Shown here in pieces: positions 13,048 to 24,275 of a stretch of 64,000 nucleotides of DNA; positions within the stretch are counted from its first letter, which is position 1, and each line of letters opens with the position of its first letter. A program made the translations under genes and the position numbers. The notes below the pieces were generated by a model. The model did no database searches. It was not told where the DNA came from and was given only the letters and a program-made list of their open reading frames with translations. The stretch is from Candidatus Hydrogenedentota bacterium (GTDB lineage Bacteria; Hydrogenedentota; Hydrogenedentia; Hydrogenedentales; JAGMZX01): the NCBI GenBank assembly GCA_029556545.1, contig JAKQEQ010000069.1:1-64000 (forward strand). Direction: 5' to 3'.

Positions 13048-13440
13048 CGAACCGATCGGACAAGGCGCGGCTACCCATCCGCGCCGGAATGCGATTCGTC
13101 ATGCACCCGCTTGTCACTCTGACGTTCCCCGCGTGCAACTCCCCGTTACCCTCGCCACCAGGTACTCCACTACCTAGAAAGCACGCTGACGGACAGAAGC
13201 TGTGGATGCTACTCCCCGATTCCCGCAATGACCATCAGCGATCACCATTGGACCACGATCCGCGGCGGGACTTCAACCGGCACGATAGGTCCTTTCCTTA
13301 TCGGGCGCCCTGGAGTGGGATAGCGTGCGGCTTCCCACAAGCAAAAAAGCTCTTGTGTGTTTGGGACCTTTGTGCCATACTGACCCCAACGGCGCCATGG
13401 GGGACGGCAGGGCCGCCGAAAGAGGGAGGAGGACGCCAAG
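13048..13440. other. Intergenic region between divergent genes
   Basis: About 400 bases separate the isomerase-like gene from the subtilase gene. A GGAGG-rich stretch (13424-13443) is the ribosome site of the latter. CACAAG...CTTGTG (13336-13357) is a weak hairpin. No convincing gene is seen; promoters for both directions are expected here but no strong consensus is visible. Confidence 0.4.
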
Positions 13441-13451
13441 GAGGTACTCGT

Positions 13452-16142
13452 ATGCAACCCGCATGGTTAAGGCCCCTCGTGCTTCTTGTCGCGGCAGCGT
13501 CATTCCTTTCCTGCAAGCCCAACAAGTTCACCTACGAAATCTCCTCGGAGGTCATACCGCCGATCCTGATATTGCCCACGGCCGACGGAGGCTCGACCGT
13601 CGTCGAGGCGTATCAAGACGAAAAGGGAGTCCGCACGGACTTTGTGGCGGACGAGGTGGTCATCTCGCCCGAGAACCAGGCCGAGCTGGACCAGTTTCTG
13701 AGTGACTACGGCGGAACCATCATAGATGACAACTCCGTGCCCGAACCGCCGGCATTACTCAAGGCACAGGTGAGGGTGCCCAAGGACGGCTTCCAGGCGA
13801 CCAGCTACACCGTGCGGGTCACGAAATTCCCGGACCTCGCCAATTTTGAAGCGGACGCATCGCGAAGAGGAATGAAAGGCAAGTATCTCTTTTCCTCCGA
13901 AGACGGGGTCAAGTTGATGGCCCTCACGTCCCGCGCAAGAGCGCGCGGGTTGAGGGTGCATCCCAATTTCGTCTGCCTCGGGAATGATATGCTCCATGCC
14001 ACGGAAGAGCAGCCTTCGACCGGCGGCGGCTATGACAACGCAATGGCGTACTTCGCTTTTCACGGGAAGGATGAAATGGGTTCGAGCCGCTCTTCCATCT
14101 ATAAGGCCTGGCAATTCATGGAAGCCGCCGATTACACGTTCCCGCAAGGACACGGCCTCGCCATTCTCGACGGCGGGTTCTGGCTGAACGCCACAGGCGG
14201 GCCGATGCAGAGTCCGTCGGGTATCGGAACGGACCTGCCTCCGTACATCGTACAATACGACTTTCACGAGGACGACTACATCGCCGACGGCGGGAATCCG
14301 AGCAATTGCACCGGGGGCGGCGCATGTCCATGGCACGGCAACAACACCGCCAGCGTTGCGGCCGGCTTCGTCGATAATCGCGCGGCCATCGCCGGTTCGG
14401 GCGGGCAAGTGTCGCAGCCCTACTTGTTCAAGCTCAGGCTCACCACCGACCAGCAGGACCGCGCGCTGCGAACCGCCATGGCCTGGGGTGCTGAAGTGAT
14501 CAACATGAGCTTTGGCGGCCCCTGCAACGACGATTGCATGGAGTACTATGAGGAAGTCAGCGATCTCTACAGTCATTTCCAGGAAGCGTTCGATGCGCGA
14601 ATCATCATTGTCGCCGCGGCCGGCAACGATGCCGTCGATGTCGATGCCTACAATTACATCCCCTGCCGCATCGGCGGCGTGATTTGCGTCGGCGCGCTCG
14701 AAAGCTACAAGTACAACGCCATCAGCTACTCGAACTACGGCGTCAGCGTCGATATCTGGGCCGACACGAACATCCCCGCCATGCCGAACGGCGCGTCGCC
14801 AAACGCTTTACCGACTGCCGGCGGCACAAGCGCTTCCAGCCCCCTCGTCGCCGGCGTCGTCATGATGATGAAGACCATCGATCCCACGCTGAACTCGAAC
14901 CAGATACTGGCAATCCTCCAGAACACCGCGTACAAGATCGGCCCCCAGCTGTCGCCGGACCCCAAAGTCCAGCCCACCGGCTACATGGACGCCTATCGCG
15001 CCGTCCTCGCCACCGCCAACAACCGAATCTTTGAGGACGCTTTCGAGCCCAACAACACAGAGGGGCAGGCGAAGCCCCTGAGTCCGGGCTACTATAAAGA
15101 ACTCACCCTGAACCCCGGCCAGTGGGACTACTACGCGTTCACCCTGAACGAATACGCCGCGTTAGGCTTCGACCTCGAATACATGAAGCCGATGGGTTCC
15201 ATCACCTTCAACTTGCTCGCCGACGCACCCGGCGTCGTCCTGAGCGGCGTTGCGGCGAGCGCACATGGAAAAGGCTACCAGTACAACGCGACGCTTGCCC
15301 CGCCCGGCAACTACAAGCTCCTCTTGAGCGCATATAGCCCGCAATACTATTACATGAACTTCACCAAGAGCGAAACCGGATTGTCTCCCGACGAGTTTGA
15401 AGCCAATAACACGTTTCCCGCCGCAACAAGCCTCCTGCAGACCCCCGGTTCCTGGGACCTGACGCTCCACCAGAAGAATACGGGCGACGTGGATTATTTC
15501 CTTGTCGAGATTCCCGTGTTCAGCGCCATTTCCGGCAGAGCGATCAGTATCCTGGACGCGGATGCGCCGCTGAGGGTGGACGTGCTTGATCCCAATACGC
15601 AGGCCGTGATCAACGCCTACACCGGAACGGAAGTGAAAATGGCCTTTGGCGGCGACGAAGCCGGCAAGAGATATGTCGTCAAAGTCTACAACGCGTACAC
15701 CCGTTACGTCCTCGAAATCCGGACGAAGGCCCCCGATCATCAGTGGGTCTACCTCCTCCCCCATGAACTCTTCTGGTGGGACGATCCCCTTGCCCCGATC
15801 ATGAGAAACATCCTCCGCGACGTCGAGGAATGGGTCGCCTTCACCGCCCCCGTAAGGGGCGCCGATCAAGTCACCCTCCTTGCGCGCGGCCTTGGCATAT
15901 ATCTCTACGACGCGGATATCGCGCCGCTTCAGACCGGCGCGCCCCTCTATGGCGGCGAGAATCTCGGCGCTATCGACGACCTGAAGGTCGGAGAGCGTCT
16001 CGATACTTCAATGCTAATCCCAGGGCAGACCTACCTGCTGCAGATCTATCGGACCCCCGAAGCACAAGATACGGAGGTGCCGGACGTCACCCCCGTCGGC
16101 GCCAACATCCCCTACACGCTGCAAAGCGCCTTTGCGCAATAG
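13452..16142 (+). CDS. Subtilisin-like serine protease lipoprotein (S8) with C-terminal repeats
   Basis: ATG 13452 follows AAGGAGG and gives a lipoprotein signal (LVLLVAAASFLSC, lipid Cys about residue 21); a frame extension to 13089 is discarded. The 896-residue product has the S8 triad: Asp240 (LAILDGG), His295 (PWHGNNTASVAAG) and Ser460 (GGTSASSPLVAG), with AAAGND as oxyanion-hole Asn. About 400 residues follow, with two or three units of the type DxFEPNNT...W(D)YYAFTLN (FEPNNTEGQAKPL, FEANNTFPAATSL), resembling bacterial pre-peptidase C-terminal domains. It is expected to be an outer-surface or periplasmic protease. An N-terminal propeptide-like region of about 200 residues precedes the catalytic domain. 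Confidence 0.9.
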   Translation: MQPAWLRPLVLLVAAASFLSCKPNKFTYEISSEVIPPILILPTADGGSTVVEAYQDEKGVRTDFVADEVVISPENQAELDQFLSDYGGTIIDDNSVPEPPALLKAQVRVPKDGFQATSYTVRVTKFPDLANFEADASRRGMKGKYLFSSEDGVKLMALTSRARARGLRVHPNFVCLGNDMLHATEEQPSTGGGYDNAMAYFAFHGKDEMGSSRSSIYKAWQFMEAADYTFPQGHGLAILDGGFWLNATGGPMQSPSGIGTDLPPYIVQYDFHEDDYIADGGNPSNCTGGGACPWHGNNTASVAAGFVDNRAAIAGSGGQVSQPYLFKLRLTTDQQDRALRTAMAWGAEVINMSFGGPCNDDCMEYYEEVSDLYSHFQEAFDARIIIVAAAGNDAVDVDAYNYIPCRIGGVICVGALESYKYNAISYSNYGVSVDIWADTNIPAMPNGASPNALPTAGGTSASSPLVAGVVMMMKTIDPTLNSNQILAILQNTAYKIGPQLSPDPKVQPTGYMDAYRAVLATANNRIFEDAFEPNNTEGQAKPLSPGYYKELTLNPGQWDYYAFTLNEYAALGFDLEYMKPMGSITFNLLADAPGVVLSGVAASAHGKGYQYNATLAPPGNYKLLLSAYSPQYYYMNFTKSETGLSPDEFEANNTFPAATSLLQTPGSWDLTLHQKNTGDVDYFLVEIPVFSAISGRAISILDADAPLRVDVLDPNTQAVINAYTGTEVKMAFGGDEAGKRYVVKVYNAYTRYVLEIRTKAPDHQWVYLLPHELFWWDDPLAPIMRNILRDVEEWVAFTAPVRGADQVTLLARGLGIYLYDADIAPLQTGAPLYGGENLGAIDDLKVGERLDTSMLIPGQTYLLQIYRTPEAQDTEVPDVTPVGANIPYTLQSAFAQ

Positions 16143-16611: not shown

Positions 16612-16745
16612 TAATTCCCGCGAAACCTGTTTCTGCGAAAGCGGGAGCCCCCCAACGTCATTCCCGCGTAACCCGTTCCCGCGACAGCGGGAAGGAATCC
16701 AACACCCCTCCGTCATTCCCGCGCAAGCGGGAACCCAGCACGCCC
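16612..16745. repeat. Three tandem ATTCCCGC...GCGGGAA repeats
   Basis: Three diverged copies begin near 16612, 16659 and 16711 with the pattern (C)GTCATTCCCGCG...CGGGAA, an inverted-repeat family widespread in bacterial intergenic DNA. A further palindrome CGACCCTGAAAGGGTCG lies near 16829. The whole gap 16143-17067 appears to be repeats only. Confidence 0.75.
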
Positions 16746-17067
16746 CGGACAAACGCGACACGTCCGGGAAGCGGACCAACGTGAGTAGCCATAGGTGACA
16801 ACCTACGGATACGAGCACACCCAAGCAAACGACCCTGAAAGGGTCGAACCATAGACGCACAAGCTCGCCAGTGACGATCAACTATCACGTTTGGCCCCTT
16901 ACGAGCCCGCGACAAGGAATATCGCAACGAACGGCGAGGCGTTCGGCTTGGTGATGCAGGTTATCGAAGTCCCCCCCGAGCGCGCTCCGTCCCGCGCCTC
17001 CGAGTTGACCATCGGGCGCGATGAGGGCAAAATGGCGCCAGGTTAAGTCGAAGCTGGATGGCATCTC

Positions 17068-18039
17068 ATGGCGGTGCAATGCGATCTGTGCCCGAAGCAG
17101 TGCGTCATCGCGCCGGGGCAAAGCGGCGAGTGCCGGGTTCGCGTGAACGTGGACGACCGGCTCGTCGCGGTCACCTACGGTTACCCGTGCGCGGTGCACG
17201 TGGACCCGATCGAGAAGAAGCCCCTGTACCATTTTCTTCCGGGCACGCCGATTTTCAGCATCGCGACCGCGGGCTGCAATCTCCACTGCAAGAACTGCCA
17301 GAACTGGGAGATTTCCCAGGCCAACCCGGAAGACACGCGGGCGTATCACCTGCCGCCGGCGGACCTGCTTCGCGCGGCGCGCGAATACGAATGCGTGTCC
17401 ATCGCCTACACGTACACCGATCCGAACGTCTACTACGAATACACGCTGGACTCCTGTGTCCTCGCGCACGAGGCCGGACTCAAGAACGTGCTGGTCACGG
17501 CGGGCTACATCAACCCGGAGCCCATGGACCGGCTGTACCGCCACGTGGACGCGGCAAACATCGACCTCAAGGGCATGACCGAGGAGTTCTACCGCGACGT
17601 CTGCGGCGCGACGCTCGCGCCCGTGCTCGACACGCTCGTGCGCGCGAAGGCGCTCGGCGTCTGGGTCGAGGTGACGAACCTGGTCATCCCCACGCTAAAC
17701 GACAGCAACGAGGCCCTCATCGCCTTGTGCCGCTGGGTAGTCGAGAACATGGGCCGCGATACGCCCCTCCACTTCTCGCGCTTCCACCCGCAGCACCAGA
17801 TGCGCCACCTGCCGCCGACCCCCGCGGACACCTTGGACCGCGCCCGGGCCATCGCCTTGACCGAGGGTCTCGATTATGTTTACATCGGGAATATCCAGCG
17901 ACCCGACGGCGCGACCACGCATTGTCCGGCGTGTGATGCGGTCGTGGTCGAGCGGGTCGGCTACCAGGTCGCGCGGAACCGCCTGCGCGACGGCGCATGC
18001 CCGGAGTGCGCCGCGCGGGTACACGGAGTCTGGCAATGA
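17068..18039 (+). CDS. amrS: AmmeMemoRadiSam system radical SAM enzyme
   Basis: The 323-residue protein has the radical SAM cluster motif Cys70-x3-Cys74-x2-Cys77 (AGCNLHCKNCQNW). It is framed by the family's N-terminal Cys set (CDLCPKQCVIAPGQSGECRV) and a C-terminal zinc-ribbon-like pair (HCPACDA, CPECAARVHG). Length and order match the radical SAM member of the AmmeMemoRadiSam trio, which resembles pyruvate-formate-lyase activases. The reaction is unknown. It heads a tightly packed operon (overlap ATGA with the next small gene) that contains the Memo and AMMECR1 domains in one protein. Confidence 0.92.
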   Translation: MAVQCDLCPKQCVIAPGQSGECRVRVNVDDRLVAVTYGYPCAVHVDPIEKKPLYHFLPGTPIFSIATAGCNLHCKNCQNWEISQANPEDTRAYHLPPADLLRAAREYECVSIAYTYTDPNVYYEYTLDSCVLAHEAGLKNVLVTAGYINPEPMDRLYRHVDAANIDLKGMTEEFYRDVCGATLAPVLDTLVRAKALGVWVEVTNLVIPTLNDSNEALIALCRWVVENMGRDTPLHFSRFHPQHQMRHLPPTPADTLDRARAIALTEGLDYVYIGNIQRPDGATTHCPACDAVVVERVGYQVARNRLRDGACPECAARVHGVWQ

Positions 18040-18224
18040 AACGACGGGGTTTCCTGGCGCTATCGGCCCATGCGGCGCTGCTCGCTCTCGCACCGCTCGG
18101 TTGGGCCGCCCGTCGCGTCTTGCCGGACCGCGTCGTGGTCGCGCTGCGCGGCCTGCCCTATCCGGGAAGAGTATCGCCCTGGAACAGTAAACAGCGGCCC
18201 GGGCCGGGGCCTTGGGCCGGCTAA
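18036..18224 (+). CDS. Small Tat-signal protein between AmrS and Memo genes (62 aa)
   Basis: The start overlaps the stop of the radical SAM gene (ATGA). The 62-residue product begins MKRRGFLALSAHAALLALAP, a twin-arginine-type signal, and ends in a short mature part with YPGRVSPW and RPGPGPWAG. It has no Cys. Position between two members of the AmmeMemoRadiSam operon, coupling of translation and export signal make it a probable component of the system, perhaps a substrate or a membrane-tethered partner. The role is inferred from context only. Confidence 0.65.
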   Translation: MKRRGFLALSAHAALLALAPLGWAARRVLPDRVVVALRGLPYPGRVSPWNSKQRPGPGPWAG

Positions 18225-18251
18225 GAAAGCACAACGCCGGGGGAACGCGTC

Positions 18252-19817
18252 ATGAAACGTGGACACAGCATCGGCCTCTATCTCACCGCTTTCCTTGTGC
18301 TTGGATTGCTTGTCGCGCTGTATGTAACCTTTCCCGTCAAGCCGACGCCGGAATCGCGGCCCGCGCCGCCGGAAAGGCCCAAGAACGTCTTCCATTCGCC
18401 CCTGGCCGGCCAGTGGTACACCGCCGACGCCGCGGCGCTGACCAAGGAGATCGCGGGGTACCTTGACGAAGCCGAAACCGCGCCGCTCGACAATGTCATC
18501 GCCCTGATCCAGCCGCACGCGGGCTATCAGTACTCGGGCCGGGTGGCCGCGCACGGCGTGAAGGCCGTCGCGGGCAAACCATTCCGGCGCGTGATCGTCC
18601 TGGGACCCAGCCACCGCTTGCCCATGGAAAACACGGCCAGCGTTCCCGACGCCACGCATTACGCCACGCCGCTCGGGGAAACGCCGCTCGACCTCGAATT
18701 CATCGACGCCCTGAAACGGCATCCCTGCTTCCAGACCCACCCCTACGCCGACGACGAAGAGCACAGCGTCCAGATTCAACTCCCGCTCTTGCAGCAGGCC
18801 CTCGGCGATTTCCGCCTCGTGCCCATCGTCGTGGGCGATCTCGACGCCGACACGGCCCACGCCATGGCCGACGTGCTCCGGGGCCTGATCGATGACCGCA
18901 CCCTGATCGTCGCCAGCAGCGACTTCACCCACTACGGCCCCCGCTACGGCTATGTCCCCTTCCAGCAGAACGTACCCGACGAACTTGAGAAGCTCGACAT
19001 GGCCGCCTACGAACAGATCGAGAAGAAGGACCTGGACGGTTTCATCGCGTATCTCCGCCGGACCGGCGCGACGGTCTGCGGGCGCGCGCCCATCAGCATC
19101 CTCCTGGCCCTGCTGCCGCCCGCAGCCGAAGCCCGCATGCTGCGCTACGACACCTCGGGCAGGATCACCGGCGACTTCGCGAATTCGGTCAGCTATTTCA
19201 GCATCGCCTTCACGGGAACATGGGGAAAAGGCGAGGCCGTTGCGCCCGCGGCCGCGGCAAGCGCGTTGACGGACGCGGACCAGCACTTGCTCCTCGCGCT
19301 CGCGCGCAAGACCATCGCATACGCCCTCGCGCACCGAAGAGTACCCGAAATCGACGAACTCGGCCTCGAAATCACGCCCAACCTCCGGCAGGTCCGCGGC
19401 GCATTCGTCACCCTCAATGAAAACGAGGCATTGCGCGGCTGCATCGGCGATATCTTCCCGGCGCGCCCGCTCTATAAGGCGGTCCTCGCGAACGCCATCA
19501 ACGCCGCCTTCAACGACCGCCGCTTCACGCCGCTCCAGCCCGACGAACTCGACAAACTCCATATCGAAATCTCCGCGCTCACGCCGCCCGCGCCCGTCGC
19601 GTCTCCCGAAGACATCGTGATCGGACGCGACGGCGTCGTGCTCTCGAAAGACGGCCACAGCGCCGTGTTTCTGCCGCAAGTGGCCCCGGAACAAGGCTGG
19701 GACCGCGAAACGATGCTGAACCATCTGGCGTTGAAAGCGAGTCTCCCCGAGGACGCCTGGCGCGAGGGCGCGACGTTCCAGGTGTTCCAGGCCGACGTGT
19801 TCAAGGAGGCCCAGTGA
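18252..19817 (+). CDS. amrB-amrA: Memo-AMMECR1 fusion (AmmeMemoRadiSam proteins B and A)
   Basis: Residues about 8-26 are a membrane anchor. Residues about 45-320 are a Memo domain with its signature runs: ALIQPHAGYQYSG, VLGPSHRLPM, EHSVQIQLPLLQ, SSDFTHYG and VCGRAPIS; the His and Cys positions match the metal-ligand pattern of Memo proteins. Residues about 335-521 are an AMMECR1 domain with the invariant LRGCIGD (about residue 394). Fusion of B and A in one membrane-anchored chain, after the radical SAM enzyme, shows the three act together, presumably on the periplasmic face. Biochemical function in bacteria is unknown to me. Its end overlaps the next gene by four bases. Confidence 0.92.
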   Translation: MKRGHSIGLYLTAFLVLGLLVALYVTFPVKPTPESRPAPPERPKNVFHSPLAGQWYTADAAALTKEIAGYLDEAETAPLDNVIALIQPHAGYQYSGRVAAHGVKAVAGKPFRRVIVLGPSHRLPMENTASVPDATHYATPLGETPLDLEFIDALKRHPCFQTHPYADDEEHSVQIQLPLLQQALGDFRLVPIVVGDLDADTAHAMADVLRGLIDDRTLIVASSDFTHYGPRYGYVPFQQNVPDELEKLDMAAYEQIEKKDLDGFIAYLRRTGATVCGRAPISILLALLPPAAEARMLRYDTSGRITGDFANSVSYFSIAFTGTWGKGEAVAPAAAASALTDADQHLLLALARKTIAYALAHRRVPEIDELGLEITPNLRQVRGAFVTLNENEALRGCIGDIFPARPLYKAVLANAINAAFNDRRFTPLQPDELDKLHIEISALTPPAPVASPEDIVIGRDGVVLSKDGHSAVFLPQVAPEQGWDRETMLNHLALKASLPEDAWREGATFQVFQADVFKEAQ

Positions 19818-22800
19818 GACGCTTCCGCGGGCCCCTCGTCTTCGCGCTCGGATTCTTCGCGCTCGCGGCGCAGACGCTCCTCTTCCGCGACTTCCTCACC
19901 GCCTTCGAGGGCAACGAACTCGCCATTGCCGCCTTCTTCGCGTCCTGGTTCCTCTGGATCGCGGCGGGCGCGCTGATCGCCCGCTGCCTCCCGCGTCTGA
20001 CCCGCGTATTCGCGCCCTTGACGCTCCTGTACATCCCCGCCTTTATTGCGGAACATTACCTGATTCTCGCGGCGCGCGGTCTTGCCGGCGTGGCCACCTA
20101 CGACCTCTTCCCCTTCGCGCGCATGTTCGCCTTTTCCACGCTGACCAACGCCCCCGTCAGCTTTCTCACCGGACTCTTCTTCACGACCGCATGCGCCTGG
20201 TGGAAGACCGCCCAAGACGCCCCCGATGCGCCTCTCCCCCGCGCTCAATTGCCCGTCGCGCGGGTCTATGCCTTCGAGACCCTCGGCGCCGCCGGGGGCG
20301 GCCTCATGATAACCGTCCTGCCGCTGCTCGAAGTCAGCCCCCACGCGCTGTTTCTCATCACGGCGGCGGTGCTTGTAACGGGCGTGGGCTTCGCCGCGCA
20401 GTCATGGGCGGCGCGAACACTGCCGATCCTCGCCTGCCTGGCCGCCTTGGCCGCGGGCGCGGGCAACGCCTGGACCGCCCGCGACGCGCGATGGAGCTGG
20501 TCGCGCCTCCTGCCGCCGGAGTCCTATCGCGGGCGCTTCATGACCGCGCAAGCCGAGTACCTGTACGGCGAGCGCGAGGGGCAATTCGTGGTGCTGTCCG
20601 GCGGCGGGACCGTCGAGAATCTCCCCGGCGCGGAACAGGGCGCGGAAATCGTCGCCTTGACCCTGGCGCAGCGCCCGGACGCCGAACACATCCTCGTTCT
20701 GGGCACGGGCGCGCTCTCCACGTGCCTGCAATTCCTGCACGTCCCACAAACGGCCTCGGTCACGTGGCTCGCGCCGGACCCGGACTACCCGGCGCGCCTG
20801 CGCGGCATCGTGCCCGCGCCCTATCGAGAGGCCATCGAGAAGATTCGCAGTCCGCGCGCGGACGCACGACGCTTTCTCAAGGAAACGACGGATCAATTCG
20901 ATCTGATCGTGCTGCAACTGCCCGACGCCGCGACACTCGCCGCCAACCGCTTTCACACGCGCGAATTCCTCTCGCTCGTGAAGCGGACCCTGCGCGCCGA
21001 CGGTGTCGCCGCCGTGCAGTTCCCCGGCGCGAGCAACGTGCTCGGCTCCGAATTGGCCCTGCTGGGCGCGTCGGTCATGACCACCCTCGAACAAGTCTTC
21101 CCGCGCGTCGCCCTCAAACCCGGCGAGTCGAGTTGGCTTCTCGGCGGCGATCGCGCGGAACTCAGCGAATCGCCCGCGGTGCTGCGCGACCGTTTCGCGA
21201 CCATTCCCGGCGCGGCGGCGGTGTTTCCGCCCGACGCCCTGCTGGCCCTGTACCCCCCCGACCGCATCGCCTTTCAATGCGCGGCCTATCGCGGCGCGGC
21301 GGAGGCCGTGCCGGACGCGCTCCTGGCCAACACTGACGCGCAGCCGAAAGCGCTCGTGTACGCGCTCTTGCTGGCGTTGCGCCAGGCGGGCTTTGCCACC
21401 TCGGTCAATATCGTGCGCGCCCTCTTCCTGCGCGGCGCGATGCTGATCGCATGCGCTATCGCGATCTACGCGATCTTGCGCCGCCTGTATGCGCGAAGCA
21501 GGCGGCGTTCGGGATCGACCGACCTGTTCGACAACGGTTTCCTCCTCTTCACCGCCGGGTGGCTCGGCATGGCCCTGAGCGTCGTGCTCCTCTTCGCATT
21601 TCAGGCGGCTTTCGGGTCGCTCTACCTCCACATCGGTCTCTTGTCCGCCCTCTTCATGCTTGGCGCGTTCGCGGGCAGCACCGCCGGCGACCGCGTACTC
21701 GCCCGCCGCGAGCAAGAACCGGCGTTGCTCGCGCCCGCGGCGCTGCTCCTGCACCTGCTCCTGCTGGGCGTCGTGGCGTGGACCGCACGCCGCGGCAACA
21801 TGGCGGCGTTCGTCGCCTGTTTCGCGGGCGCGGGCGTGTTCACCGGGTTCTATTTCCCCCTCGCGTCATTCCGCATGCGCCAACACGGCGTCTCCGAGGC
21901 GGCCGCGGGCGCGCGCCTCGAAGCGCTGGACCACGTGGGCGCGGCGGGCGGCGCATTGGTCACGGGCCTGGTCTTGTTGCCGTTATTCGGCGCCGCAACG
22001 ACCCTCGGGCTGCTGGCGCTCCTGCTGGCTGCCAATATCGTGCTGCTTGGCCGTCCCGCCGCCCCATCAACGCCCGCCGACGCCTTCGACCGATGGCGAC
22101 GTCCCGTTGGATACGTCCTCTTCGGCGCGAGCCTGTTCGCCATGATCGCATCCAACGTCATCGCCGCCGCGTTGCCCGACGATGCCCGGCAAGCCTTCGA
22201 AAACGCCGCGCGCGCGCTGCTCCAGACGCCTGAGTTGATGGCCGAGGAAGCGACGCTGCCCGACGGCAGGACAATTACCCGTTACCGCGCGCCCGAACAG
22301 CCCTCCCCTGAAACGCCGTCCGTGTCCGTCTTCAACAGCGCCGATCTCGCCCCGGACGTCATGGGCTTCGCGGGGCCCGTCTCGCTGGCCCTCGCAATCG
22401 ATCCCGACGGCGCGCTCCATGCCGTTCGCGTCGTGGCGTCGCGCGAGACGCCCGCCTATCTCGCCATGATCGCGCCTTGGCTGGATCGGCTGCCCGGCAT
22501 AAGCCCTTTCGATCCCGCCTCCTTCGCGGACATCGACGCCGTCAGCGGCGCGACCATCACATCGCAGGCCGTCCTCCGCACCATCGAGGCGTCCGCCCGC
22601 GAAATCGCGCCCCTGTACCGCGTCGGGTCAATCGCGACCACGCCGGCGTTTACGACCCCTTGGTTCGACGCCGACTTCTGCTGGCTGCTCGCCTTCACCG
22701 GCGCCGCGTTGATCATGCGCTTCTATCCGGGCCGGTGGCGCAGGCGCATCTTCCTGCTCGCCGTCGTGGCCGCGCTCGGCCTCCACCTCAACCTTCAATA

Positions 22801-23365
22801 CTCCGCGCATCACGTGATATCCGCGCTCGCGGGATCATTCCCGCAGCCGCGCCTCACCGGGGCCTTCTTCATCGTCGCGTTGGTCCCGCTTTGCACCCTG
22901 CTCTGGGGCAACGTTTACTGTGGCTACCTGTGTCCCTTCGGCGCGACGCAGGAATTGATCGGCGATCTGCGCCCGAAACGCCTCCGCACCGACCCCGACA
23001 AGCGCATAGGACGCTGGGGGCGCATGGTCAAGTACCTGCTGCTCTTTCTGCTCGTGCTGCGGTTCGCGCCGACCCGTGACTTCACACACATCGACGCCGA
23101 CCCGCTCACCACGTTCTTCAGCGTCCTGCGCGACCGCTGGACCCTGCTCTTCGGCGGCGTCCTGATCGCCCTGTCGTTCCCGTACCGGCGATTCTGGTGC
23201 CGCAACCTGTGCCCGGCCGGAGCGTTCCTCGCCCTGCTGAATCGGCCCCGAATCCTGCGCAGGCTCAGTCCGCCCACGCACCCCGCCCGCTGCGACCTCG
23301 GCGTGCGCAACGCGGAAGAACTGGATTGTATCCGTTGCGACAGGTGCGCCCATGAAAACAAATGA
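19814..23365 (+). CDS. Giant membrane fusion: spermidine-synthase-like, FMN-binding and NapH/NosR-like Fe-S domains
   Basis: The 1183-residue protein has three parts. Residues 1-780 hold two multi-span membrane blocks around a spermidine-synthase-like Rossmann region (VLGTGALSTCLQF, RFHTREFLSLVKRTLRADG) in which the usual catalytic Asp pair is not evident. Residues about 790-940 form an FMN-binding domain with DIDAVSGATITS, where Thr914 is the expected site of covalent FMN attachment. Residues about 950-1183 form a membrane ferredoxin module of NapH/NosR/YccM type: CGYLCPFGATQE, CRNLCPAGAFLALLN and a C-terminal CIRCDRC. It could carry electrons from the membrane to periplasmic AmmeMemoRadiSam partners. 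The fusion is rare-looking and its function unknown. Confidence 0.85.
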   Translation: MRRFRGPLVFALGFFALAAQTLLFRDFLTAFEGNELAIAAFFASWFLWIAAGALIARCLPRLTRVFAPLTLLYIPAFIAEHYLILAARGLAGVATYDLFPFARMFAFSTLTNAPVSFLTGLFFTTACAWWKTAQDAPDAPLPRAQLPVARVYAFETLGAAGGGLMITVLPLLEVSPHALFLITAAVLVTGVGFAAQSWAARTLPILACLAALAAGAGNAWTARDARWSWSRLLPPESYRGRFMTAQAEYLYGEREGQFVVLSGGGTVENLPGAEQGAEIVALTLAQRPDAEHILVLGTGALSTCLQFLHVPQTASVTWLAPDPDYPARLRGIVPAPYREAIEKIRSPRADARRFLKETTDQFDLIVLQLPDAATLAANRFHTREFLSLVKRTLRADGVAAVQFPGASNVLGSELALLGASVMTTLEQVFPRVALKPGESSWLLGGDRAELSESPAVLRDRFATIPGAAAVFPPDALLALYPPDRIAFQCAAYRGAAEAVPDALLANTDAQPKALVYALLLALRQAGFATSVNIVRALFLRGAMLIACAIAIYAILRRLYARSRRRSGSTDLFDNGFLLFTAGWLGMALSVVLLFAFQAAFGSLYLHIGLLSALFMLGAFAGSTAGDRVLARREQEPALLAPAALLLHLLLLGVVAWTARRGNMAAFVACFAGAGVFTGFYFPLASFRMRQHGVSEAAAGARLEALDHVGAAGGALVTGLVLLPLFGAATTLGLLALLLAANIVLLGRPAAPSTPADAFDRWRRPVGYVLFGASLFAMIASNVIAAALPDDARQAFENAARALLQTPELMAEEATLPDGRTITRYRAPEQPSPETPSVSVFNSADLAPDVMGFAGPVSLALAIDPDGALHAVRVVASRETPAYLAMIAPWLDRLPGISPFDPASFADIDAVSGATITSQAVLRTIEASAREIAPLYRVGSIATTPAFTTPWFDADFCWLLAFTGAALIMRFYPGRWRRRIFLLAVVAALGLHLNLQYSAHHVISALAGSFPQPRLTGAFFIVALVPLCTLLWGNVYCGYLCPFGATQELIGDLRPKRLRTDPDKRIGRWGRMVKYLLLFLLVLRFAPTRDFTHIDADPLTTFFSVLRDRWTLLFGGVLIALSFPYRRFWCRNLCPAGAFLALLNRPRILRRLSPPTHPARCDLGVRNAEELDCIRCDRCAHENK

Positions 23366-23600
23366 CGCCGTCTATATCGCGGCGGTCTGCATCGTCGCGC
23401 TGGTCTTCATGGCACTCGTCTGGCGGCCCGCCGGACCCGCCGAAGGACAAGCCGCCCCCACCGGCCTCGGCGCGCCGGGCGTACCGCGCGCCGTCGACTC
23501 CGATCTGATCCTCCGGCTCATCCGCGAACACCGCCTGTCCGACCGCGAAGCCGAGTTCTACCGCGTCCTCGTCGCCCCCGACTCCCCGGGTGTACCGTAG
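23352..23600 (+). CDS. Small single-span membrane protein ending the AmmeMemoRadiSam operon
   Basis: It overlaps the end of the fusion gene by 14 bases and is therefore part of the same operon. The 82 residues comprise one N-terminal span (AAVCIVALVFMALVW), a Gly/Ala/Pro spacer and a polar C-terminus with LILRLIREHRLSDREAEFYR. No Cys or cofactor motif is present. It may be an accessory subunit of the electron-transfer protein; no family is recognised. Confidence 0.7.
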   Translation: MKTNDAVYIAAVCIVALVFMALVWRPAGPAEGQAAPTGLGAPGVPRAVDSDLILRLIREHRLSDREAEFYRVLVAPDSPGVP

Positions 23601-23626
23601 CGGCGGCGCGCAAGCAAAAACAGGGC

Positions 23627-23655
23627 TTGACATATATATTGCGATGCAATATAAT
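23627..23655 (+). promoter_or_regulatory. Consensus promoter of higBA
   Basis: TTGACA (23627-23632), a 17-base spacer and TATAAT (23650-23655) give a perfect sigma-70 consensus, 19 bases before the toxin start codon. Confidence 0.85.
23635..23653. promoter_or_regulatory. HigA operator: palindrome in the promoter spacer
   Basis: TATATTGCGATGCAATATA is a perfect 19-bp inverted repeat (8-bp arms, 3-bp centre) lying in the spacer and overlapping the -10 box. This is the placement expected for autorepression by the HTH antitoxin. Confidence 0.8.
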
Positions 23656-23673
23656 CTGGTATGGAAGCACACA

Positions 23674-23955
23674 ATGATTGTGAACTTCGCGGACAGCTTC
23701 ACGCGGCGGCTCTTTGACGGTGAATACGTCAGGGGCTTTCCGTCCAACTTATGTCCGGTGGCATGGCGAAAGCTCGATATGGTAAATCGGGCACACACGT
23801 TGGAAGATCTGCGGCTGCCGCCGGGGAACCGCTTGGAGGCGTTAAAAGGCGACCTTCGCGGTTTCCACAGCATTCGTATCAACGACCAGTGGCGCATCGT
23901 GTTCCACTGGCGCAACGGCAACGCGGAAGCGGTCCGCGTCACCGATTATCACTGA
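23674..23955 (+). CDS. higB: HigB/RelE-type toxin
   Basis: ATG 23674 starts a 93-residue protein (MIVNFADSFTRRLFDGEYVRG). The C-terminal half carries the HigB/RelE signature: LEALKGDLRGFHSIRINDQWRIVFHW, read here in two parts, with Arg and His positions typical of ribosome-dependent mRNA interferases. Toxin precedes antitoxin, the usual order for higBA. Expression should be driven by the perfect promoter directly upstream and repressed through its palindrome. A longer frame to 23590 is rejected since it would span the promoter. Confidence 0.9.
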   Translation: MIVNFADSFTRRLFDGEYVRGFPSNLCPVAWRKLDMVNRAHTLEDLRLPPGNRLEALKGDLRGFHSIRINDQWRIVFHWRNGNAEAVRVTDYH

Positions 23956-23969
23956 GAAGGGACCAAGAC

Positions 23970-24275
23970 ATGTTGCCCACGAAGCGCGTGACGACCCATC
24001 CGGGGGAAGTGCTGCAGGAAGAGTTCCTGTCGCCGATGGCGATATCTCAATCGGCCTTAGCGCGACATCTTGGCGTGCCCCCCTACACCATCAACGAAAT
24101 CGTCCACGCCAAGCGCGCCGTGTCGCCGCGCATGGCCGTCATGCTCTCGCGGGCGCTCGGCACATCCCCCGAATTCTGGATGGGCCTCCAAGCCGATTAC
24201 GATCTGACGGCCGTGTTACGGACCCGCGAAGGAAAACGCGCGCAAACCATCCCGCCCATAGCGCGGGCCGGTTGA
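23970..24275 (+). CDS. higA: HigA-type antitoxin (XRE family)
   Basis: ATG 23970 lies 14 bases after the toxin stop, with a GAAGGGA site upstream. The 101-residue protein has the VapI/HigA pattern: HPGEVLQEEFLSPMAISQSA, then an HTH of the XRE type (LARHLGVPPYTINEIVHAKR) and FWMGLQADYDL near the C-terminus, the usual end of this family. It neutralises HigB and, through the HTH, should bind the palindrome in the higB promoter. A longer frame from 23751 overlaps the toxin and is discarded. Confidence 0.92.
   Translation: MLPTKRVTTHPGEVLQEEFLSPMAISQSALARHLGVPPYTINEIVHAKRAVSPRMAVMLSRALGTSPEFWMGLQADYDLTAVLRTREGKRAQTIPPIARAG

Follow-up and report, generated by a model that had tools for sequence, protein, structure and literature searches.

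In the genome of a Candidatus Hydrogenedentota bacterium (assembly GCA_029556545.1), five genes on contig JAKQEQ010000069.1 form a conserved operon that is an AmmeMemoRadiSam (AMR) system, and on balance we consider it probable that this system works outside the cytoplasm, around a radical S-adenosylmethionine (SAM) enzyme that is split in two and exported by the twin-arginine translocation (Tat) pathway. The stretch analysed, here called the window, comprises positions 1 to 64,000 of that contig (forward strand). The five genes occupy positions 17068-23600 on the + strand, with ends that overlap or are closely spaced, and encode a short AMR radical SAM enzyme (rSAM), a tiny Tat protein which we call TatS, an anchored Memo-AMMECR1 fusion, a 1183-residue membrane protein (hereafter the large fusion) and a small membrane protein. 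Their features are as follows.

17068-18039, + strand: AMR radical SAM enzyme (rSAM), short form (TIGR04337, 408.1 bits, cut-off 220)
18036-18224, + strand: TatS, 62-residue Tat protein (twin-arginine signal, C-terminal W-A-G)
18252-19817, + strand: Memo-AMMECR1 fusion gene (TIGR04336, 219.5 bits, cut-off 26; TIGR04335, 179.2 bits, cut-off 99)
18252-18380, + strand: hydrophobic N-terminal anchor or signal of Memo-AMMECR1, from the sequence (hydropathy 2.9)
18402-19205, + strand: Memo domain (PF01875, 200.9 bits)
19296-19802, + strand: AMMECR1 domain (PF01871, 176.5 bits)
19814-23365, + strand: 1183-residue membrane protein with a major facilitator superfamily (MFS) fold, an inserted spermidine-synthase fold, and flavin mononucleotide (FMN)-binding and NapH/NosR-like iron-sulphur (Fe-S) domains
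20525-21343, + strand: spermidine-synthase-like (SpeE-like) domain, about residues 238-510 (Z 24.4 to 1uir)
22364-22588, + strand: FMN-binding domain (PF04205; predicted flavinylation site T914, codon 22553-22555)
22862-23347, + strand: NapH/NosR-like membrane Fe-S domain (PF12801; two CX3CP motifs and CX11CX2CX2C)
23352-23600, + strand: small single-pass membrane protein, 82 residues (conserved tail LSDREAEFYR)

Conservation of the operon

The rSAM, AMMECR1 and Memo proteins all score above their curated NCBIfam cut-offs, the latter two being adjacent by fusion, and the ATG of TatS overlaps the rSAM stop codon. An initial annotation, made from the letters of the window alone, had described five packed genes with these domains, and each was found in place. 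The host genome is a 6.1-Mb draft (96% complete), whose relatives in the named genome collection are Candidatus Hydrogenedentota metagenome-assembled genomes (MAGs). A full-length homologue of the large fusion is present in 12 of the 40 searched genomes, its own included, and in nine of the eleven other carriers rSAM and Memo-AMMECR1 immediately precede it, arranged as in the window, a recurrence which argues that the operon is not due to chance. As for the two exceptions, in one the contig start cuts the locus (L037/L052), which still opens with an AMMECR1 end, and in the other (G012) the rSAM lies on another contig. The large-fusion homologue of genome G015 (L036/L084) holds one in-frame TAA and is either a pseudogene or the victim of a sequencing error.

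That the large fusion should recur beside AMR genes was one of the points on which the initial annotation had staked its reading, and it holds in a wider scan. Among 80 loci from named genomes, the fusion is present in 38 of the first 40, and AMR genes lie within reach at 30 of these 38 (27 with rSAM, two with Memo only, one with an AMMECR1 end only). The carriers are Hydrogenedentota, Planctomycetota, Lentisphaerota, Kiritimatiellota, Verrucomicrobiota, Nitrospiraceae and Proteobacteria MAGs. No AMR gene was found within reach at the remaining eight (L062, L064, L069, L073, L074, L079, L080 and L085), at least three of which are on short contigs. The last 40 loci match the Fe-S part only, and one of them stands beside an AMR-type rSAM: in this Armatimonadetes MAG (L116), a 560-residue NapH-like Fe-S protein is encoded directly upstream of a weak match of 276 bits. 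Furthermore, at two loci (L087, and L089 from a Neomarinimicrobiota MAG) the MFS/SpeE part and an Fe-S protein are separate genes placed around the AMR genes.

A shortened radical SAM enzyme and its Tat partner

The window rSAM passes PF04055 (68.9 bits, cut-off 29.5) and keeps the CX3CX2C cluster motif found in all 126 tabulated rSAMs. Its residues 3-322 align to positions 12-333 of the TIGR04337 model; the first 11 model positions are absent, and with them the N-terminal ARYFxKL-type stretch. This shortening goes along with a separate Tat protein, as none of the 36 rSAMs that have one retains an aromatic pair before the first cysteine, compared with 72 of 90 others. TatS itself starts with MKRRGFLAL and carries a twin-arginine motif and a hydrophobic stretch (MKRRGFLALSAHAALLALAP); with this signal, and a Tat translocase gene in the same genome (TatC, 193.7 bits), it is a predicted Tat substrate. 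A tiny gene with an RR motif follows the rSAM in nine relatives, where it ends in W-x-G despite divergence elsewhere. At loci found through the large fusion, the small Tat open reading frame (ORF) behind an rSAM that is not itself Tat-fused ends exactly in [WF]xG in 27 of 27 cases (F-x-G once), against 20 of 3051 background ORFs of 40-110 residues in loci L051-L090, TatS ORFs included. This is the unbiased figure; the W-x-G count for the rSAM class with a separate TatS (class A) is partly circular, since the pattern was used to find that class. The rSAMs that precede these tiny genes start directly at their first CxxC.

Other lineages point to where TatS came from. In KSB1, WOR-3, Neomarinimicrobiota and other genomes a Tat signal is fused to the rSAM and followed by the ordinary (K)EARYYEKL...VxC segment, and one such protein (L087) matches TIGR04337 from position 1. 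In all four genomes of a small other phylum, the gene behind a short rSAM encodes a tiny Tat-type protein bearing KEA[RKM]FY (KEARFYKIL, KEAKFYKVFK, KEAMFYKVFR and KEAMFYRVI), the normal rSAM N-terminal motif that short rSAMs lack. In one of these four (L393) the tiny protein is in frame with the rSAM, whose last zinc-ribbon cysteines are lost; this arrangement may be either a true fusion or an overlapping start. The C-terminus of a basal class-A member of the window clade (L309), LKEGSWSG, looks intermediate. In the AlphaFold2 (AF2) model of the Tat-fused L087 rSAM, whose nearest solved folds are pyruvate formate-lyase activating enzymes, residues 41-50 reach a pLDDT of 92, compared with about 37 in the signal, and strands are predicted at 44-46 and 52-54, which places the N-terminal segment within the folded core. 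Judged by its position, its Tat signal and the intermediate forms, TatS is most likely the detached, Tat-bearing N-terminal segment of rSAM, a role that the initial annotation had not seen when it recorded the small Tat protein. From its position and the intermediates, we think it likely that window TatS docks on the rSAM.

Export signatures across AMR systems

A survey driven by rSAM matches, which sampled 40 of 52 and 60 of 89 located places, gave 96 rSAMs after duplicates had been merged. Four rSAM ORFs without a recognisable N-terminal CxxC were left out (three from the survey, one from the fusion loci). Reading of the N-termini led to corrections by hand: L293 and L294, falsely called Tat, were set to cytosolic and L324 from Tat to transmembrane (TM) anchor; L318, L323 and L320 were likewise set as TM anchors, L075 and L316 were added to class A, and L243 was set apart. 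Thirty-one of the 96 are then of export type (7 with TatS, 1 intermediate, 19 Tat-fused and 4 TM-anchored), and 65 bear no export signature. The MFS/SpeE part of the large fusion lies within 7.5 kb of 13 of the 31 and of none of the 65 (Fisher p 5e-8, kinship ignored), at a match threshold of 90 bits, below which falls a weak match at L290 (42 bits, 4.9 kb away). Memo proteins behave alike: where a Memo is adjacent, the only situation tabulated (21 of the 96), it has a signal or anchor in 12 of 12 export-type cases compared with 0 of 9 others. In the whole-genome comparison given below, two export-type Memos (G219 and G230) are below the hydropathy threshold but show lipobox-like cysteines by eye. 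The 30 rSAMs found through the fusion include 27 with an adjacent Memo, 26 of them with a signal; for the single miss (L077) the script measured no N-terminal stretch on Memo.

When 22 whole genomes were searched, 16 of the 18 of export type proved to encode the MFS/SpeE part, as against none of the four which have a short rSAM without TatS, and whose Memos carry no signal. In a quick tree of 126 rSAM rows (SH-aLRT support only, midpoint root), all export-type rSAMs and these four fall into one clade of 65 rows (SH-aLRT 96), the four forming their own group beside class-A members. Nested in this way, they look like a coupled loss, which suggests that TatS, the Memo signal and the transporter were lost together. 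In a separate observation, an Armatimonadetes MAG (L250, G101) has three AMR-type rSAM genes close together, two with clear Tat signals. Taking these sequence signatures as our guide, we consider it quite likely that the window rSAM is exported from the cytoplasm.

The large membrane protein

Pfam recognises FMN_bind (PF04205, 44.4 bits) and Fer4_5 (PF12801, 74.7 bits; cut-offs 22 and 22) in the large fusion, and PF01564 scores 22.9 bits, exactly at its cut-off. In the AF2 model (pLDDT 86.1, pTM 0.83), about residues 1-749 are predicted to adopt an MFS transporter fold of two six-helix halves, similar, when model residues 1-752 are compared, to VMAT2 (9kqa; Z 29.1, 344 residues aligned, 3.8 Å) and FLVCR2 (9qu4; Z 25.2, 356 residues aligned, 3.6 Å). 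Inserted into it is a spermidine-synthase fold (1uir; Z 24.4, 286 residues, 3.4 Å; a Foldseek search was also run). The initial annotation had named the spermidine-synthase-like, FMN and Fe-S parts correctly and missed the transporter fold.

The combination of a membrane domain with an inserted SpeE-like domain is shared with the fused MFS/spermidine synthases (NF037959) and the PRK03612-type polyamine aminopropyltransferases. The window protein falls short of the NF037959 cut-off (21.7 of 40 bits) and, unlike these proteins, has no catalytic Asp; an unfused relative (L246) lies above that cut-off with 42.3 bits. Membership among spermidine synthases fails, as the place of the catalytic Asp in the DxxDP region (position 368) is taken by other residues in all 33 homologues, and a polyamine-making role was discounted for this reason. 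Given the absence of this residue, a degenerate glycine-rich loop, and Asp322 (of ribose-binding type) and Asp363, both invariant in the same 33 homologues, the domain may bind a ligand of nucleoside type and not act as a synthase. By reading, seven hydrophobic segments precede the SpeE-like domain and eight separate it from the FMN domain, a count that may put the SpeE-like domain outside, whereas the central loop of a classical MFS protein would be inside.

Further towards the C-terminus, all 33 homologues share G912, A913 and T914, the last being the predicted FMN site; of the eight Fe-S cysteines, which are likewise conserved, four never vary and four are kept in 31-32 of the 33. Having FMN_bind and Fer4_5 above cut-off, the GAT motif and the CX3CP cysteines, the protein matches the NapH-like flavinylated class, while NF046105 (NosR; 58.3 of 1000 bits) and TIGR02163 (34.8 bits) stay below cut-off on the Fe-S domain. 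The genome encodes two ApbE flavin transferases; together with the conserved FMN and Fe-S motifs, they give good support to a predicted route for electrons across the membrane.

Memo-AMMECR1, the small membrane protein and the surroundings

In the window Memo, H89, H121 and C276 match H49, H81 and C244 of human MEMO1, its metal ligands according to passages of PMC11081632, and are candidate metal ligands. The same passages have MEMO1 bind iron or copper in a dioxygenase-like site and liken its iron site to that of extradiol dioxygenases. The host genome has three more Memo genes and one more AMR-type rSAM (254 bits) at other places (L002, L003, L004 and L047); at L004 a Memo with a hydrophobic N-terminus stands beside a separate AMMECR1 gene.

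A Pfam search of the small membrane protein gave no match. In L037, L039 and L040 it is joined to the end of the large protein, and its tail, LS..EA.[FY][YW], is conserved in 37 of 42 loci, with none found in the other five. The LSDxEAxFYR tail resembles the strand missing from the rSAM (the KEARFYEKL segment), a likeness suggestive of a second donor of that strand; alternatively, the tail may be a helical hairpin that has nothing to do with it.

The operon is followed directly by a HigB-like toxin gene (23590-23955; PF05015, 76.5 bits), which overlaps a reading frame that is HigA-like by eye (23751-24275). Upstream, at 13089-16142, a subtilase-family (S8) protease is encoded (PF00082, 75.2 bits) with a lipoprotein-like stretch near its start, and between it and the operon, at about 16640-16780, repeats of the type cattcccgcgnaagcggga resemble repetitive extragenic palindromes.

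Discussion

According to our model, the rSAM would fold and gain its Fe-S cluster in the cytoplasm, where TatS would bind it through its C-terminal tail and carry it through the Tat translocase by a hitchhiker mechanism; after export, TatS may remain as its anchor. Outside, the rSAM would act together with the membrane-anchored Memo-AMMECR1. Electrons would pass from the cytosolic Fe-S clusters to the covalent FMN domain on the outer side, which would stand in for the flavodoxin of cytosolic radical SAM enzymes, and the MFS transporter with its SpeE-like domain would move SAM out, or products or substrate across. The extradiol-dioxygenase-like site of Memo would hint at a substrate in or at the membrane that bears an aromatic group or another that can be oxidised.

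The steps of this model differ in strength. Radical SAM enzymes require one-electron reduction, and because of this need and the co-occurrence of the genes we give delivery of electrons to the rSAM by the large fusion an even chance. Transport of SAM by the same protein is the weakest step and appears doubtful. Only tentatively do we put forward the most elaborate version, in which a split rSAM outside the cytoplasm, with its N-terminal strand as Tat escort, is fed electrons by the Fe-S conduit and SAM by the transporter and is held to that protein by the LSDxEAxFYR tail; as a whole it is rather unlikely.

Several observations weigh against an exported, split enzyme with a dedicated partner. 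To our knowledge, SAM outside the bacterial cytoplasm is without precedent. The KEAxFY motif is missing from the tail of window TatS itself (W-A-G). Two export-type genomes depart from the pattern: G088 gave no transporter match, and G101 only a fragment of 59 positions; all the genomes in this comparison are drafts of unstated completeness. Furthermore, the tree holds only two independent export-type changes; both go in the expected direction (sign test p 0.5), so that with kinship taken into account the co-occurrence is suggestive and falls short of significance. The N-terminal helix of four rSAMs in the survey of 96 is not of Tat type and might point to anchoring on the cytosolic side or to a Sec route, which is ill-suited to a cluster enzyme; separate FMN or Fe-S partners stand beside only few of the Tat-fused rSAMs.

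In a rival reading, the rSAM would stay in the cytoplasm, with TatS and the Tat-like or TM segments as uncleaved anchors at the inner face and the modified substrate crossing through the MFS part. No SAM transport is then required, and in clade members L318, L323, L320 and L324 plain TM anchors do replace the Tat motifs. We regard this as improbable nonetheless, as twin-arginine motifs predominate over plain anchors, Memo-AMMECR1 proteins of the same operons have secretion or lipoprotein signals, and the FMN domain belongs to an extracytosolic family.

Somewhat less probable again is the model of the initial annotation, which sent the electrons across the membrane to Memo and AMMECR1 outside and would make the rSAM a separate cytoplasmic maturase. 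Its FMN/Fe-S path stands as a prediction from conserved motifs; its recipient is a proposal. Memo-AMMECR1 is anchored and adjacent, and the dioxygenase-like site of MEMO1 takes iron or copper (passages of PMC11081632), but the model would leave the shortening of the rSAM alongside a Tat-bearing partner unexplained, and likewise the Tat-fused rSAMs. Memo and AMMECR1 are probably an incomplete answer, and given the Tat evidence and the need of radical SAM enzymes for one-electron reduction, the rSAM is the likelier, or an additional, recipient.

Least probable of the three is that TatS is a substrate resembling ribosomally synthesised and post-translationally modified peptides (RiPPs), its C-terminal W-x-G modified by the rSAM before Tat export and handled outside by Memo-AMMECR1: the invariant [WF]xG end (27 of 27 small Tat ORFs against 20 of 3051 in the background) and the nearest folds, pyruvate formate-lyase activating enzymes acting on a glycine in a peptide, speak for it, but the idea is weakened by the four intermediate-phylum TatS proteins, which lack a terminal Gly and bear the rSAM N-terminal motif instead, and by Tat-fused systems that keep the other parts with no such peptide nearby.

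An exported, split rSAM would set this operon apart from the systems it resembles. Like other AmmeMemoRadiSam systems (TIGR04335, TIGR04336 and TIGR04337), it has the three proteins above cut-off in one operon; in contrast to typical ones, Memo and AMMECR1 are fused and anchored, the N-terminal segment is absent from the rSAM, and a separate Tat protein and a dedicated MFS/FMN/Fe-S partner are present. The pairing of an extracytosolic FMN domain bearing [ST]GA[TS] with PF12801 in one protein is that of the NapH-like flavinylated electron-transfer proteins, as set out in parts of Meheust et al. 2021 (PMC8238504). Unlike those, the window protein begins with a whole MFS and spermidine-synthase-fold module and has an AMR rSAM as partner; the words radical SAM, spermidine and Memo are absent from the main text of PMC8238504. 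The arrangement is also reminiscent of hitchhiker Tat export in hydrogenases and formate dehydrogenases, where, according to passages of PMC10924467, one subunit bears the twin-arginine signal for a folded, cofactor-bearing partner. In the window, by contrast, what carries the signal seems to be a fragment of the enzyme itself made as its own subunit, and the cargo would be a radical SAM enzyme. Our searches of the open-licence literature found nothing on exported AMR rSAMs or on AMR genes beside FMN/Fe-S proteins. A passage of PMC7159879 cites Burroughs et al. 2019 for Memo-AMMECR1 systems, and the latter work may describe part of the window system. As far as these searches show, the exported split-enzyme form of AMR with an MFS/FMN/Fe-S partner is new within that literature.

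Conclusions

Memo and AMMECR1 are found in organisms ranging from archaea to humans, and radical SAM enzymes normally work in the cell interior. Export of the entire system in one subclade, together with a dedicated redox and transport partner, would narrow the role of AMR to one that needs electrons, probably SAM, and a substrate accessible outside the cytoplasm. The primary molecular function of MEMO1 is still called unknown in the abstract of PMC11081632; if our model is true, it would be clear where Memo and AMMECR1 act, and their task could be put to the test. In the most elaborate version, radical chemistry would take place at the outer face of the membrane, with one purpose-built protein meeting the needs for both electrons and SAM. 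To find radical SAM enzymes at work beyond the cytoplasm would extend what is known of the superfamily's range.

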